This document shows positions 14,936 to 21,209 of a stretch of 64,000 nt of DNA, one piece after another. The notes beneath the pieces were generated by a model. It saw only the letters and a program-made list of their open reading frames with translations, was not told the DNA's origin and ran no database searches. The stretch covers positions 1-64,000 of the forward strand of contig NZ_AXAC01000007.1 in NCBI RefSeq assembly GCF_000472665.1, written 5' to 3'. Each line of letters opens with the position of its first letter. Position 1 is the stretch's first letter. The stretch comes from Acetobacterium malicum subsp. dehalogenans DSM 11527 (lineage in GTDB: Bacteria > Bacillota > Clostridia > Eubacteriales > Eubacteriaceae). The position numbers and the translations under genes are program-made.

Positions 14936-15736
14936 TTAACCAAGCAGACCGCTACGATGGGCTTTGATGTAGCCGCCACAGTAATTATCCATGCCCAGCA
15001 AGGCCCGGGAGGTGACAATATCCGCCATAGTTTTATTGTTGGTTGGGTCCAGAACATATCCATCCATACCCAGGGTCATGGTCTCAACAACGAAGAGCCG
15101 ATTCAGAATCGCCCGATTGGGCAGTCCGTAAGAAATATTACTGAGTCCACACATGAAATGCACATCTGGATAATCGGTTTTTATTTTCTTGATCGTTTCC
15201 AGCACTTCAATCCCAGCCGTACCCACACTGCTTACCGGTTTCACCAGTGGATCAAAATACATATCGTCATCTTTGACCCCTTCGCTGGCTAATTTATCGT
15301 GGAGAGTATGGACAACCTTCATACGATCATCGGATGTAACCGGCATTCCGGTACTGTCCATGCAAAGCACGACAATTTTGGCGTTGTATTTTTTGATCAG
15401 CGGCAGCACCGAATCATAGCGCTCATCTTCGTCCGAAATGGAATTAATCATCGGACGGCCATACTTACAGAGACTCAGCCCCATATCCAGCGCGGTGGCG
15501 CTGGGACTGTCGATACATAATGGCACTTCGACCTCACTTTGAATGGTATTTACCAGCCATTCCATGGTTTCTTCCTCGTTATTGATCATGTTGCCACAAT
15601 TTACATCGATAAATGTAGCCCCAGCCTTGGCCTGACGGATGGCAAGATCAATGATCATATCTCTATCCCGATTCATAGCCGCTTCTTTGACAGCGGGTCG
15701 GCTGGTATTGATTAATTCACCTACAATTGTTAGCAT
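14936..15736 (-). CDS. mtaA: Methyltetrahydrofolate:corrinoid-protein methyltransferase (MtaA-type)
   Basis: Methyltransferase II of the methanol system. It moves the methyl group between the corrinoid protein and tetrahydrofolate, feeding the Wood-Ljungdahl pathway. The 266-residue protein is a pterin-binding TIM barrel of the AcsE/MtrH type: MLTIVGELINTSR at the N-terminus, GATFIDVNCGN (expected pterin site), CIDSPS and PMINSISDE. This is unlike methanogen MtaA, which belongs to the uroporphyrinogen-decarboxylase fold. It follows mtaB and mtaC1 in the same direction, with GGAGGAG before the ATG. Confidence 0.88.
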   Translation of the reverse strand: MLTIVGELINTSRPAVKEAAMNRDRDMIIDLAIRQAKAGATFIDVNCGNMINNEEETMEWLVNTIQSEVEVPLCIDSPSATALDMGLSLCKYGRPMINSISDEDERYDSVLPLIKKYNAKIVVLCMDSTGMPVTSDDRMKVVHTLHDKLASEGVKDDDMYFDPLVKPVSSVGTAGIEVLETIKKIKTDYPDVHFMCGLSNISYGLPNRAILNRLFVVETMTLGMDGYVLDPTNNKTMADIVTSRALLGMDNYCGGYIKAHRSGLLG

Positions 15737-15766: not shown

Positions 15767-16429
15767 TTATGCACTCAATTCTTCTGGACGGCTTTGGTCA
15801 CACATCATCTGATCACATAATTCGACTGCGGTGGATGCATCCTCAGAGTAGCCATCGGCCCCGATATCATCTGCGAATTCCTGAGTAACCGGGGCACCGC
15901 CGATTATAATTTTCACCTGATTTCTTACTCCATCAGCAACCAGTTGTTTAATCGTTGATTCAATCTTCATCATCGTTGTAGTCAACAGTGAGGACATTCC
16001 GACAATATTTGGCTTATGTTCTTTAACGGCTGCCGAAAATACTTCTTCCTTAACATCCACGCCCAGATCGATGACTGTATATCCCCGGCTTTCCATCATC
16101 ATCACCAGCAGATTTTTGCCGATGTCATGCAAGTCACCATTTACCGTACCAATGATTATTTTTCCTTTGCTGGGAATGTCATCATCAGTTATCAGCGGTT
16201 TTACCAGCTTCATCCCTTCGTTCATGGTATCAGCTGATTCCATGACTTCCGGTACAAACATTTCACCGCTTTTAAACAGGGGCGCGACAATGTTCATTCC
16301 AGCAATCAAACCATCATTGATAATTACTATGGGGTCTGTTCCATCATCAATCAGCGCCTGGACCAATACTTTGATTCCATCTAAATCACCATCCAAAACA
16401 CACTGGGATACATCATTCAAAGTTGCCAT
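15767..16429 (-). CDS. mtaC: Methanol-system corrinoid protein MtaC (copy 1)
   Basis: The 220-residue cobalamin-binding protein shuttles the methyl group from MtaB to MtaA. It has the N-terminal four-helix cap domain and the B12-binding domain with DLHDIG, whose His101 is the expected lower axial cobalt ligand, followed by GMSSLLTTTM and the GGAPVTQEFAD loop. AGGAGG precedes the ATG. It lies between mtaB (88 nt upstream) and mtaA (30 nt downstream). It is clearly related to the second corrinoid protein at 19205-19867 but not identical to it. Confidence 0.9.
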   Translation of the reverse strand: MATLNDVSQCVLDGDLDGIKVLVQALIDDGTDPIVIINDGLIAGMNIVAPLFKSGEMFVPEVMESADTMNEGMKLVKPLITDDDIPSKGKIIIGTVNGDLHDIGKNLLVMMMESRGYTVIDLGVDVKEEVFSAAVKEHKPNIVGMSSLLTTTMMKIESTIKQLVADGVRNQVKIIIGGAPVTQEFADDIGADGYSEDASTAVELCDQMMCDQSRPEELSA

Positions 16430-16517: not shown

Positions 16518-17894
16518 TTATAAGCCGTACTCGCTGGGAATGAATTTGTCCATATCCAATTCCGATTTCATCTGATGGTAGAATTCGTTGGGATCATCAG
16601 GAATCGATTCAATCGCTTTTTCCATTTTATCCAGCCACTTCATGTCCCGCTTATCGCTTTTTACCTTGCCTTCGACAATTGCTTTTTTGAGTTCAGCTAC
16701 CGTCAGTTGGGCCGCTAACCTGGTTCTCAGGAAATTATCCTGGATTTTAACAAGCTCGGCACTGATTCGCATCACCACATCGGGGCGGAGCACATAGGCC
16801 TGAACATCAAGAGCTGAATCAGACTGAACCAATAGATCGCGAAACATCAGTTGCTGTCCATTTAAGGTGGCTGCGTTCATCAGTCGACAATCATAGATCA
16901 ATTGTTCCATTGCCACTACCGGGGCCATTTCAGATAATAGCTTCACTTGCTGAATCGATTCATTACTCCAGGTATCGGCAACGGCTGCGGCAATATTGCC
17001 AACCGGGCTCAAATGGGCACCAGCTGCAGTTTTTCCTTCCATCGAAATAGGACTACCGGTAATCGCTTTAAGGTACGGTCCTTCATAAGCACAATCTTTA
17101 CTCGGTCCCACGGCGCCCTGTTCAAACGCTACCAAGGCCCGGGGAACCGCGGTTACCCGAATAACCGCAGCAAATACATGGGGGATAAAGCCTTTTTCGG
17201 CCAGGACCATGGCAGTATTGGCAAACCCGCAGGCTGAATCACCAGCGGCAAAACAACAGTTGGCATTGGCTAAATCGACCAGGTGTTTCCATAAGAATTC
17301 CATGTCATTGACACCCAAAACACCCAGGGCAAAAATCGCTTTGCGGATATCCGCTTTGACCAGCGCAGTATCATGGATTTCCTTCCCTCCGGTTGATTCA
17401 ATCGAGAAGAAATCAGAGCCATCTTTGGCACATTGTTCATACAGTTCCAGCATCGTTTCCCAATATTTTCCACTGCGCATAATGGGTGGCCGGCTGAACT
17501 CCCGCAAATCGTTGGGAGTTGTTCGAATCGCTGTTTTTAAGCCATATTTTTCAGCGGCTTCTTTCATGCCATTCAACAGAATCCGATTAATCTCAATCCC
17601 ATATTTGGGATGCTCAGTAAAGTCAGGCAAGGTTTCAAATTCAACTAAAACCCCAGGTGCATAGAGTTCCGCCGCCCGTTTGAGAACCCCTTCGATAATA
17701 TTGGAATAAATCGTGGCTGCTTTTGGCATCGTCACATCATTAATATCCATACCGGGTAATGTGAAGTTGATTTCCGGATACACCACTCCTCCGCCGATCA
17801 CCATACCACTTTTCGTAGTTACCGGATTGGGACAGGAACCGTATACAAAATCATCCAAGTTTGTGTATGCTAATTGATTAAACTTCTTCGCCAT
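16518..17894 (-). CDS. mtaB: Methanol:corrinoid methyltransferase MtaB
   Basis: Methyltransferase I activates methanol at zinc and methylates Co(I) of MtaC. The 458-residue protein matches MtaB in length. Glu166 (FFSIES), Cys222 (GDSACGF) and Cys268 (PSKDCAYEG) stand where the Methanosarcina barkeri zinc ligands Glu164, Cys220 and Cys269 are, from memory. N-terminal MAKKFNQLAY and PNPV segments are also typical. GGAGG lies before the ATG. The gene follows a 215-bp gap holding a large hairpin and probably its own promoter, and is followed by mtaC and mtaA. Confidence 0.93.
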   Translation of the reverse strand: MAKKFNQLAYTNLDDFVYGSCPNPVTTKSGMVIGGGVVYPEINFTLPGMDINDVTMPKAATIYSNIIEGVLKRAAELYAPGVLVEFETLPDFTEHPKYGIEINRILLNGMKEAAEKYGLKTAIRTTPNDLREFSRPPIMRSGKYWETMLELYEQCAKDGSDFFSIESTGGKEIHDTALVKADIRKAIFALGVLGVNDMEFLWKHLVDLANANCCFAAGDSACGFANTAMVLAEKGFIPHVFAAVIRVTAVPRALVAFEQGAVGPSKDCAYEGPYLKAITGSPISMEGKTAAGAHLSPVGNIAAAVADTWSNESIQQVKLLSEMAPVVAMEQLIYDCRLMNAATLNGQQLMFRDLLVQSDSALDVQAYVLRPDVVMRISAELVKIQDNFLRTRLAAQLTVAELKKAIVEGKVKSDKRDMKWLDKMEKAIESIPDDPNEFYHQMKSELDMDKFIPSEYGL

Positions 17895-18039: not shown

Positions 18040-18102
18040 GAATTAAACAAGCACAATATGTATTATTTATTGTATAAAATACATATTGTGCTTGTTTAAT
18101 TC
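18040..18102 (-). terminator. 25-bp perfect hairpin between the His-rich gene and mtaB
   Basis: The arms 18040-18064 and 18078-18102 are perfectly complementary over 25 bp with a 13-nt AT-rich loop. The hairpin begins 8 bp after the stop of the His-rich gene and is followed on the minus strand by TTTTATAAAG. It most likely ends or attenuates the upstream transcript, and the perfect pairing is unusually long for a terminator. Confidence 0.65.
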
Positions 18103-18109
18103 CGAATAC

Positions 18110-18574
18110 TCAATGATGATGGCCATGACAGATTGGACAATCATTTCCGTCGCCATGATGGTGATGGTTGCTCTGCCGATCGTGCTTTGCATTGATTTGA
18201 ATCTTGATCTCAGAATCCCGTTTTATCATCGTCTGGCATGATCGTTCAAGAAAAACATGGCTTTCTTTCTCACTGATATTGGAAACCAGCGAGTTAATAA
18301 TTACATTTATATCGAAAAGATCCTGATGATTACCATGAAAGTTGCTATTAATGGCATTTGAATTGCCGACACAACTGAATTTTATAAAATCCTTTTCATC
18401 AATCTGTGCCAGCGCTTTGATATGACCAATCATCCGATTATCGTCTTTGCAAATTTGATTCACATAAAGATGCAATACATCTTGAATCCGGGAGCGCCAT
18501 TTTTCAACAGGCAAAGCCTGGTTCGATGAAAACCGGATATTGAAAACAACCGGCAGAAATTCTTCCTGATACAT
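18110..18574 (-). CDS. Small protein with histidine/cysteine-rich C-terminal tail, putative metal carrier
   Basis: A 154-residue soluble protein. Residues 1-130 are a mixed alpha/beta region with no motif I can name, resembling in size the C-terminal domain of COG0523 (CobW) GTPases. The tail contains HHHHGDGNDCPICHGHHH, an obvious metal-binding sequence with a CPIC pair. It starts 17 nt after a short CobW-type GTPase that lacks its own C-terminal domain. I infer that the two proteins are a split COG0523 metallochaperone, possibly delivering zinc to MtaB or cobalt to the corrinoid system. Function is not proven. Confidence 0.7.
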   Translation of the reverse strand: MYQEEFLPVVFNIRFSSNQALPVEKWRSRIQDVLHLYVNQICKDDNRMIGHIKALAQIDEKDFIKFSCVGNSNAINSNFHGNHQDLFDINVIINSLVSNISEKESHVFLERSCQTMIKRDSEIKIQINAKHDRQSNHHHHGDGNDCPICHGHHH

Positions 18575-18591
18575 TCATTTTACCTACTTTC

Positions 18592-19212
18592 TCACAAATA
18601 TTGATGAAGCTCCTGACTCAGCGCTTCGTTTAAATTCATTTTATATGTTTTTAAGCCTGGTCTTATGGTCTCCACCATCTTCACTGCTGTTTCAATTTCA
18701 CTCTGGTTAACCTGATCAAGCTTATTGATTACCACACATTTCGCCAGATTGATCGAATCATTAAACAACTGGTTCATCCGTTTTTGATATAAAGCAATCC
18801 GGGTTGGATCAAAAACAAACACATTTTGAATCTCTTCTTCCCGGTATCCACAATTCATAATGGCTGGATACAGCGACAATGGATTGGCCATTCCCGACGG
18901 TTCAAAGAGAATATAATCCAGATCCTCATAGTCTTCCAGCAGATGATTGACGGTCGCTTCCAGTGTCACCTTCATGGTGCAGCAGACACAGCCGCCAAAT
19001 AAATCCAGCACGTCATAGCCCATCATCCGCATCTGCCGATTATCAATTCCCACTTCCCCGATTTCGTTAATGATAATCGCACATTTTTTATCAGCCGCTG
19101 ACAGCATTTCTATGGTTTTAAGCAGCATGGTTGTTTTACCCGAACCCAGAAATCCAGAGAACAGTATAACTGGCGGCCGATCGCTTAATAATTCGCGATT
19201 TTTATTACACAT
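18592..19212 (-). CDS. Short CobW/HypB-type G3E GTPase (metallochaperone)
   Basis: A 206-residue P-loop GTPase of COG0523. It has Walker A GFLGSGKTT at 20-28, INEIGEVGID, the metal motif GGCVCC at 73-78, FEPSGMANP, and the guanine motif NKLD. It ends soon after the GTPase core, so the usual C-terminal domain is missing and may be supplied by the next gene. An ATG-less frame extends upstream through mtaC2. I place the start at ATG 19212, which overlaps the mtaC2 stop and has GGGG before it. Partner metal is inferred from context as zinc or cobalt. Confidence 0.85.
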   Translation of the reverse strand: MCNKNRELLSDRPPVILFSGFLGSGKTTMLLKTIEMLSAADKKCAIIINEIGEVGIDNRQMRMMGYDVLDLFGGCVCCTMKVTLEATVNHLLEDYEDLDYILFEPSGMANPLSLYPAIMNCGYREEEIQNVFVFDPTRIALYQKRMNQLFNDSINLAKCVVINKLDQVNQSEIETAVKMVETIRPGLKTYKMNLNEALSQELHQYL

Positions 19213-19867
19213 TAAAATACCCCGCTTTGTTCCCCAGCAATTGATTGACAATTTCAATGGCTCCGAAAACGTCTTTGCCATAGCCATTTGCACCAATTTC
19301 ATCAACATAATCCTGGGTGACTGGACCACCACCAACAACAATTTTAACCCGATCCCGGATCCCTTCGTTGACAATTGCTTGAATCACATGTTTCAATTCG
19401 CCAATGGTTGTGGTCAAAAGTGCTGACATCGCCAGAATATCCGGTTTATAGCGCTGTATAGCCGAAATAAATGATGAGGATGGCACATCGATTCCCAGGT
19501 CAATGACCTCATAACCGTCACCTTGAAGGGTCATTGATACCATATTCTTGCCAATATCATGAAGATCTCCGGCAACGGTTCCAATAACGATTAGTCCTTT
19601 TTTTCGTTTGAGGTTGGATTCAACAAGCAGTGGCTTTAACACATATAGGCTTGCATGCATGGCACGGGAAGACATTAGTACATCCGGAATAAAGATATTG
19701 CCGTTTCTAAACTCTTTACCGATTTGTTCCATCATCGGAATCAGGGCGGTGGCAATAATCACATCGGCTGAAATTCCCATCTTCAGCGCCTGCTCTGTTG
19801 AATTTTTGACTACTTCGGCGTCACCATCATTTAAGCCGTCTTGAATTTCTTTTATATAACCATCCAT
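19205..19867 (-). CDS. Second MtaC-like corrinoid protein
   Basis: A 220-residue cobalamin-binding protein with the same architecture as mtaC: helical cap domain, then B12 domain with DLHDIG (axial His103), SALLTTTIGEL and GGGPVTQDYVDE. Sequence differs substantially from copy 1, so it is an old paralogue rather than a recent duplicate. It lies 13 nt after the PocR/AraC regulator and overlaps the GTPase gene by 8 nt. It may serve a different methyl donor, or be an alternative partner of MtaB. Confidence 0.88.
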   Translation of the reverse strand: MDGYIKEIQDGLNDGDAEVVKNSTEQALKMGISADVIIATALIPMMEQIGKEFRNGNIFIPDVLMSSRAMHASLYVLKPLLVESNLKRKKGLIVIGTVAGDLHDIGKNMVSMTLQGDGYEVIDLGIDVPSSSFISAIQRYKPDILAMSALLTTTIGELKHVIQAIVNEGIRDRVKIVVGGGPVTQDYVDEIGANGYGKDVFGAIEIVNQLLGNKAGYFNV

Positions 19868-19880
19868 TGTGACCCTCCTT

Positions 19881-21209
19881 TTAGAGATTTTGCCTGAATT
19901 GTGTTGGGGTCATTCCCTCGTTGCGACGAAAGACCTTGGAAAAATAGGAACCGTCGCTATAACCCAACGACATGGCAATTTCTTCAATCTTATAACGGGG
20001 ATTGCTGAGCATTTTTTTCGCTTCATCCAACTTTACCTTGGTGACATAATCCATCACCGTCATGTTTTGACTTTCTTTAAAAATTCTACTGACATAAAAA
20101 GGGCTCAGATAAACCGAATCCGCGATTTCTTCGAGTGAGCTGTTGTTTGCATAATTATTGCGGATAAAGCCTTTAATACCTTCAACCGCAGCCCGATTTT
20201 TTGATTTACTGTGATGGTGAATTTCATCCAAGTATCGTTCCAGCAGCGAATTAGCAACAATATTAATTTCCCGAATGCTATAACAGTTATTCAGTTCCTG
20301 CAATAAATTGGCATTGAATCCCATTGATTTTTCTATGTCAACCCCAGCTTCGACACAAGCCCGGGACATGACCACCACCAATTCGAAAACCCGTCCCTTC
20401 ATAATCAAGAGCTTTTCTCCGTCACAAGAGAAAATATCGGCCAGCATAACCTTAAAGAGCTTACGGCACTCATCGAGATCACTGAGTTTGATTTTTCCGA
20501 TCAGGGCTTTTTCTTTTTCTAAAAAAAAGTTTAGGCTCTGACTATTGAGTTTTTCTTCCAGATTCTTACGGGTTTGAATTTCTTCATTCAACAGGAGTTG
20601 CTGCAATTCAATTTCTTTTTTCTGGTGCAAGCTTTCGCCACCGGTTTTGATAATGTAGTTGGCAATCACATGAAGCAGCGATGCCGCCCCCTGCACCTTT
20701 TCCCCTGACACTACCTGAAGCTTCTTGGCGGCTTCAAATAGTGCTTTAAAATCGTCGGTCAAAAAACGATTCATTTCTTCCAACTCAATCCAGAAAAACT
20801 CTTCCGGTTCCCACATCAAAACCTGTCCACAAATGATCGTTCCCAAATGCTCTTCATCAAAAATAATCGGTGCTGCCCACTCAATCAACCCGGCCGGACA
20901 ACGGAAAATATAGGGTTCATCAAAAATAGCCGCCTGTTTTCCGGCCCGAGCATATGCTCCCACACAACGACTGATCCCCTTTTGTTTTTCCATTTTCCAG
21001 ATCATGTGGCAAAATTCACAATTCTTTTGGGCATCTTTCCTGGAAAAGATCGAGTGTCCTTCCACATCAACGATATTTGCAGTCAATCCCGTTACATTGG
21101 TAAATGCATCTAATATTTTGATAATAATTTCTTTGTCCACAAGTTGGATTAAATGCGCCCGGCTGGATACATTTCCGCATTTTTTATTAGCAAACGTTTC
21201 GTTCACCAT
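19881..21209 (-). CDS. PocR-domain AraC-family transcriptional regulator
   Basis: A 442-residue regulator. The N-terminal half is a PocR ligand-sensing domain, containing ANIVDVEGH, CEFCHMIW, CVGAYARAGKQA, and YIFRCPAGLIEWAAPI. The C-terminal 100 residues are an AraC double helix-turn-helix (SLEEIADSVYLSPFYVSRIFKE and IEEIAMSLGYSDGSYFSKVFRR). PocR domains sense C1/C3 metabolites or bind a cofactor near corrinoid genes. As first gene of the cluster it is the obvious candidate activator of mta expression. Confidence 0.9.
   Translation of the reverse strand: MVNETFANKKCGNVSSRAHLIQLVDKEIIIKILDAFTNVTGLTANIVDVEGHSIFSRKDAQKNCEFCHMIWKMEKQKGISRCVGAYARAGKQAAIFDEPYIFRCPAGLIEWAAPIIFDEEHLGTIICGQVLMWEPEEFFWIELEEMNRFLTDDFKALFEAAKKLQVVSGEKVQGAASLLHVIANYIIKTGGESLHQKKEIELQQLLLNEEIQTRKNLEEKLNSQSLNFFLEKEKALIGKIKLSDLDECRKLFKVMLADIFSCDGEKLLIMKGRVFELVVVMSRACVEAGVDIEKSMGFNANLLQELNNCYSIREINIVANSLLERYLDEIHHHSKSKNRAAVEGIKGFIRNNYANNSSLEEIADSVYLSPFYVSRIFKESQNMTVMDYVTKVKLDEAKKMLSNPRYKIEEIAMSLGYSDGSYFSKVFRRNEGMTPTQFRQNL

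Follow-up and report, generated by a model that had tools for sequence, protein, structure and literature searches.

Two adjoining genes in a methanol locus of the window, by which we mean the whole 64,000-nucleotide stretch of DNA analysed here, encode a single-domain GTPase and a small partner protein, and we consider it reasonably probable that they form one two-component metallochaperone (a COG0523 GTPase and its partner), most likely inserting zinc into the adjoining methyltransferase. The partner resembles a COG0523 C-terminal domain with a His/Cys end, and such pairs are also encoded next to related enzymes of other anaerobes, which makes the two proteins promising candidates for a dedicated supply of zinc.

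Layout of the methanol locus and identity of the GTPase

The earlier note on this DNA had described a GTPase that ends just after its core, followed by a separate gene for a protein with a His/Cys tail, the two lying in a methanol locus between corrinoid-protein and mtaB genes. We recovered both genes and both neighbours, all on the minus strand:

19881–21209, minus strand: PocR-domain AraC-type regulator
19205–19867, minus strand: corrinoid protein (PF02607 and PF02310), upstream neighbour of the GTPase
18592–19212, minus strand: single-domain COG0523 (CobW-type, G3E) GTPase, 206 aa; PF02492 at E 6e-38, no PF07683
19132–19155, minus strand: P-loop GFLGSGKT of the GTPase, residues 20–27, invariant in 23 sequences
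18979–18990, minus strand: CxCC of the GTPase (C75, C77, C78), where related proteins have their metal site; invariant in 23 sequences
18110–18574, minus strand: stand-alone partner, 154 aa, with a predicted fold like that of the COG0523 C-terminal domain and a His/Cys tail
18416–18427, minus strand: GHIK signature of the partner, residues 50–53, opposite RxKG of two-domain COG0523 proteins
18113–18166, minus strand: His/Cys tail of the partner, HHHHGDGNDCPICHGHHH, residues 137–154, of low model confidence and probably disordered
18040–18102: near-perfect inverted repeat between the partner gene and mtaB, 30-nt arms, 93% complementary, z −9.8
16518–17894, minus strand: MtaB, methanol:corrinoid methyltransferase (PF12176)
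15767–16429, minus strand: second corrinoid protein
14936–15736, minus strand: MeTr-like pterin-binding methyltransferase (methyltransferase II)

The GTPase start codon (ATG at 19212) overlaps the end of the corrinoid-protein gene (19205), and 17 nt separate the GTPase stop codon from the ATG of the partner gene. The inverted repeat at 18040–18102 is probably a transcript end or an attenuator. Hairpins of other sequence occupy the interval between partner gene and mtaB in three further loci (L002, L003 and L004), and a search of this interval in L005 and L011 found no hairpin. In ten loci (L003 2217–2612, L004 2168–2608, L005 862–1254, L006, L007, L008 and L010–L013) a conserved, truncated relative of the corrinoid proteins, 129–146 aa long, is encoded between the partner gene and mtaB; the two that were scanned match only the PF02607 cap domain, and the histidine of DxHxxG is lost in 9 of the 10. 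This relative was not seen in the window, where the hairpin occupies the interval.

In the GTPase, PF02492 (cobW) covers residues 14–188 of 206 with 130.6 bits against a cut-off of 20.7, and no other Pfam family rises above its cut-off, CobW_C (PF07683) being absent from the chain. The COG0523 motifs are all present as GFLGSGKT, GGCVCC, EPSG and NKLD (P-loop, CxCC, ExxG and NKxD). A C-terminal domain in the same chain is usual, not universal, for COG0523 proteins; this GTPase lacks one, and a like domain appears to be encoded by the next gene. Its closest PDB relative, found with a profile of 23 sequences, is YjiA (1nij, E 2.6e-20), and it reaches only 85.3 of the 332.1 bits set for the CobW equivalog TIGR02475. 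The position of the YjiA zinc-site residue E37 is I or V in the GTPase class of the window, so the metal site of this class is not identical to that of YjiA.

With the two-domain COG0523 proteins YjiA, YeiR and CobW the pair thus has in common a GTPase domain with P-loop and CxCC, and, in the partner, the predicted fold of their C-terminal domain; unlike them it is encoded by two genes, belongs to a separate clade, has GHxK in place of RxKG and carries on the partner a tail of apparently metal-binding type. UreG and HypB, the G3E nickel GTPases, likewise are small single-domain GTPases with separate partner proteins (UreG acts with UreD, UreF and UreE), but the window GTPase lies far under the HypB cut-off (33.3 of 121.2 bits) and its partner has no Pfam match above cut-off. 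A single-domain CobW-like GTPase is also described by the CobW-related selenoprotein model NF041053 (195 model positions), for which we know of no partner; here the window GTPase scores 74.3 against a cut-off of 180.

The partner protein and the COG0523 C-terminal domain

Passages of Haas et al. 2009 (PMC2770081) describe an additional C-terminal domain in most COG0523 proteins and a His-rich region in about 40% of them. The window partner ends in HHHHGDGNDCPICHGHHH, and its last 24 residues include 9 His and 2 Cys. Across 30 partner sequences the tail residues C146, C149, H153 and H154 are conserved at 90% or more, and 28 of the 30 have a CxxC within the tail. The earlier note had taken the second protein for the missing C-terminal domain on the grounds of its size. 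Searches against known families were negative: Pfam and NCBIfam gave no convincing family match for the partner, PDB sequence searches with the small partner family gave no relative at E below 1, and PF07683 (CobW_C) matched neither the 30 class I partners, the window's included, nor 8 others, with a sensitivity such that two true two-domain proteins reach only 20.4 and 24.3 against its cut-off of 22.

The predicted structure of the window partner (mean pLDDT 85.6) runs strand–helix–four strands–helix–strand, with the tail at low confidence. Structural similarity to COG0523 C-terminal domains, which the earlier note had put forward as a check, was seen in part. In Foldseek the best 3 of 350,542 PDB chains for the window partner all belonged to YjiA, with E values from 1.2e-3 to 2.8e-3 and so none under 0.001. 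This result is not decisive, because structural realignment of the same model favours other domains, with amidohydrolase/peptidase domains on top (Z 8.5) and YjiA not among the best 50 rows. For the second-class paralogue from the same genome (pLDDT 82.9), Foldseek ranked YjiA 2, 5 and 7 after a topoisomerase IV chain at rank 1, and realignment placed residues 166–318 of YjiA at ranks 1–3 (Z 8.0, 8.0 and 7.9 over 111 residues; next row 6.8).

We compared profiles of the partner families with the C-terminal parts of two-domain proteins, using 100 column-shuffled decoys as controls. Against 18 COG0523 C-domains, the combined partner family scored 35.3 (best decoy 16.1), the second class 37.5 (best decoy 19.6) and class I with distant members 26.5 (best decoy 15.9); class I alone barely exceeded its best decoy (19.2 versus 19.0), and the third class alone fell below its decoys (18.6 versus 20.8). 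Against 31 C-domains, the combined family scored 32.6 (best decoy 16.1) and class I with distant members 28.7 (best decoy 15.8), and the second class alone dropped from 37.5 to 21.6, a score without decoys of its own. In the profile alignment HIKA of the partner lies opposite RIKG of the two-domain proteins, and the signature separates the two kinds cleanly, as RxKG is found in 31/31 two-domain proteins and GH[ILV]K in 68/68 partner genes of split loci.

From the profile, fold and signature-position results we conclude, on the strength of sequence comparison and predicted models, that the partner corresponds to the C-terminal domain of COG0523 proteins, encoded on its own and extended by a tail, much as the earlier note had guessed; homology in profile and fold holds for the partner family and is weaker for the window's own class taken alone. 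We think it quite unlikely that the 154-aa protein is instead an unrelated small metal-binding protein with the common ferredoxin-like fold, its likeness to the C-terminal domain being convergent. The absent CobW_C match, the realignment of the window partner with its preference for other domains, the lack of a PDB sequence relative at E below 1 and a class I profile scarcely above its decoys would all agree with such convergence, but it would not account for the decoy-controlled profile hits of the combined family, in which HIKA aligns with RIKG, for the first rank of the YjiA C-domain with the paralogue, or for the strict pairing with single-domain COG0523 GTPases described below.

Conserved pairing and a separate lineage

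The window partner has 33 matches, spread over 23 of the 61 genomes searched and counting its own genome. Among the 30 loci listed, a single-domain GTPase adjoins the partner in 29 and the 30th ends at a contig end; all 30 contain a corrinoid-protein gene (within about 1.5 kb on each side). Two more single-domain COG0523 genes occur in the own genome, and after each of them comes a gene for a small protein of the second or third class. The third-class partner has an N-terminal His/Cys stretch, and the second-class partner is followed by a separate His-rich gene. For a wider count, 41 single-domain and 26 two-domain genes of 12 genomes were sorted (HypB-like, UreG-like, short and weak matches excluded; 22 of the 26 two-domain genes read, the other four being of 362–391 aa), and 39 of the 41 single-domain genes have a partner directly downstream. 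No partner lies directly downstream of any of 31 two-domain COG0523 genes. Across 69 split-pair loci, taken with unequal flanks, both genes were re-found by profile in 68, on the same strand in 68/68 and with a median gap of −8 nt.

A profile built from the remaining partner classes (A4) hits 32 sites, spread over 24 of the 398 genomes searched in the phylum (18 of 267 genera), and a GTPase lies just upstream in 30/30 of the loci listed, among which the small gene of L170 was not re-found by our profile and L183 is truncated. With the class I profile alone there are 11 hits, in 10 of the 398 genomes. As A4 also picks up the window's own partner (E 2.6e-4), the partner classes are tied together. 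All of these counts are drawn from related genomes.

Unpartnered single-domain COG0523 genes occur once each in G022 and G034, two genomes of the same genus. At L120 (3872–4600) and L121 (3920–4681), a single-domain GTPase of the same clade has no partner nearby, and the adjacent UroD-family gene is on the opposite strand; this GTPase may borrow the partner encoded in the mta locus. Elsewhere (L230 3899–5035, the same gene as in L081) a partner domain with a His-rich N terminus is fused to DUF2284, predicted to be metal-binding, near RACo and DUF1638 genes. A DUF1638 gene also lies directly 5′ of the split pair in six loci (L220, L222, L223, L225, L226 and L247), which have a corrinoid protein in 6/6 cases and a UroD-family gene in 5/6; these loci suggest a link of DUF1638 to split-pair systems, the Pfam assignment having been made on the DUF1638 protein of L080.

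The earlier note spoke of a split GTPase. Two proteins do carry the two halves, but the GTPase tree argues against a break of the gene at this locus. Built from 93 GTPase domains, it places 60 split and 2 unpartnered GTPases on the opposite side of one branch from 31 two-domain proteins (SH-aLRT 99; the tree is unrooted and comes from a quick search, with several long branches flagged). Because the split GTPases keep to their own side of a supported branch, the window pair belongs to a separate COG0523 lineage with its own partner family, and we rejected a recent or local gene break. Nor was any fusion of partner and GTPase found among the 33 matches of the window partner, the 11 of the class I profile or the 32 of A4; one partner is fused to DUF2284. 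CxCC is present in 58/60 split GTPases, the other two having CxCG, and is missing from 10/31 two-domain proteins by a crude pattern.

Of the 398 genomes searched in the phylum, 31 have MtaB, and we examined 28 of the 30 mtaB loci outside the own genome, the two excluded being fragments at contig ends. The search for fused versions that the earlier note had suggested turned up two-domain GTPases near mtaB at 13/28 of these loci, from several branches of the two-domain side of the tree. The split pair was seen at 0/28, and at 15/28 no gene of COG0523 lies closer to mtaB than about 5 kb, several of these loci being cut by contig ends. It follows that COG0523 genes of separate lineages lie beside mtaB, the split clade here and fused ones elsewhere, and that MtaB can do without a neighbouring COG0523 gene. 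Eight mtaB loci from other families (L191–L198) have the order mtaB, corrinoid protein, two-domain COG0523 GTPase and RACo activator. That COG0523 genes occur beside mta genes was already known: passages of Haas et al. 2009 (PMC2770081) report that genes of COG0523 subfamily 13 lie together with those of corrinoid-dependent methyltransferases, namely mtaA, mtaB and mtaC in methanogens, with examples in clostridia, which is the same link to methanol methyltransferases as in the window pair. In the open-licence literature we found no description of the split pair, the partner family, the clade or the GHxK signature.

Client, cargo and proposed mechanism

In the 12 genomes, mtaB lies within 3 kb of a split GTPase in 10/10 cases, and mttB lies within 10 kb of one in 0/127 (same contig only). 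Two-domain COG0523 genes lie within 10 kb of mttB in 12/127 cases, three of them within 5 kb. Within 4.5 kb of the 69 split pairs we found mtaB in 13 cases and a UroD-family gene in 48, together 61, and the same distance includes a corrinoid protein in 55, a MeTr-like gene in 46, RACo in 4 and an MtmB-like gene in 2; neither mtaB nor a UroD gene was found near 8 of the 69, two of these loci being cut short.

In an alignment to 2i2x_A, positions 164, 220 and 269, which we take to be the zinc ligands of 2I2X, are filled in the window MtaB by Glu, Cys and Cys, so that the zinc-ligand residues are present. The UroD-family proteins show a related pattern. An H-x-C/D motif plus Cys is found in 40/46 pair-linked UroD proteins versus 10/39 others, a contrast (Fisher p about 1e-8) that ignores relatedness and uses a crude pattern. 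The comparison set of 40 was made up of 20 of 28, 13 of 17 and 7 of 21 UroD genes of G000, G009 and G011, chosen among the matches listed; L274, about 3 kb from a pair, was then excluded (11/40 if included), and six genes of the set (L256–L259, L276 and L277) have a two-domain COG0523 gene at a distance of no more than 8 kb. H-x-D...GC is kept by 15/15 pair-linked UroD proteins of class I loci and H-x-C-G-x-C by 17/17 of other loci; lone UroD proteins of about 325 aa have H-H-x-D in 24/24 and no conserved Cys. MttB enzymes are not known to contain zinc. According to a passage of PMC13222342, zinc is not used by CdmB, a member of the UroD family from A. dehalogenans.

The UroD motif pattern, the mtaB and mttB neighbourhoods and the ligand residues of MtaB together favour zinc. 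The earlier note had left the cargo as zinc for MtaB or cobalt for corrinoids, and of these zinc appears to fit better, because mtaB goes with the pair and mttB, with its corrinoid-protein neighbours, does not. We therefore regard as unlikely a role in which the pair serves the corrinoid protein, by delivering cobalt or by MeaB-like help (MeaB being a G3E GTPase) in loading or protecting the corrinoid cofactor, with MtaB a mere neighbour. Such a role would suit the corrinoid-protein gene at 55/69 pairs and inside 30/30 listed partner loci as well as the RACo activator genes near 4/69, and a passage of PMC7895991 has cobalt handled by CobW, itself a COG0523 protein. It sits poorly with the absence of split GTPases within 10 kb of all 127 mttB genes, since corrinoid-protein genes lie beside mttB in 4/5 of the regions looked at. 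Cobalt, moreover, enters the corrin ring during biosynthesis and not at the protein.

Even if the metal is zinc, the pair might buffer zinc in general or respond to low zinc, lying in these operons by chance, rather than insert the metal into a specific client. A subset of COG0523 proteins is tied to zinc homeostasis in passages of PMC2770081, and His-rich ends recur across several partner classes; we nonetheless hold this to be very unlikely, as a single genome can carry more than one pair, located at different methyltransferase loci (the own genome has 3 pairs and G010 has 6).

For the preferred reading, a dedicated zinc inserter, we propose the following model. The partner tail and the CxCC of the GTPase would gather the metal, and GTP binding would then create a tight metal site on CxCC, in line with passages of PMC7895991 reporting that guanine nucleotides raise metal binding by CobW and that nucleotide-bound YjiA and YeiR prefer Zn(II). 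Bound to the GTPase, the partner would dock at the position of the usual C-domain and recognise the methyltransferase, and GTP hydrolysis would free the zinc. The clients would be MtaB in the window and, at other loci, methyltransferases of the UroD family whose sites are of the His/Cys or His/Asp/Cys type. As a ligand for the hand-off, the invariant His of GHxK is a candidate. A broader and more tentative proposal, to which we give clearly less weight, is that anaerobes have an entire clade of COG0523 inserters that work as heteromers, their C-terminal half having become a separate, exchangeable adaptor, and that an invariant His in place of the Arg of RxKG forms a metal hand-off site at the interface with the GTPase. 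Varied metal-collecting ends (C-terminal CPxCHxHHH, N-terminal His/Cys stretches or the DUF2284 fusion) would then go with one pair per corrinoid methyltransferase.

We know of no account of how MtaB-type and UroD-type methyltransferases obtain their metal, and a candidate dedicated pair with a clear GHxK signature allows a direct test of metal supply to these enzymes, which would matter for the transfer of methanol pathways to other hosts. A recurrent unclassified protein of acetogen methyltransferase loci gains a name. For the family, the pair offers a natural dissection of COG0523 proteins, in which the C-terminal domain could be removed or swapped as a separate protein.
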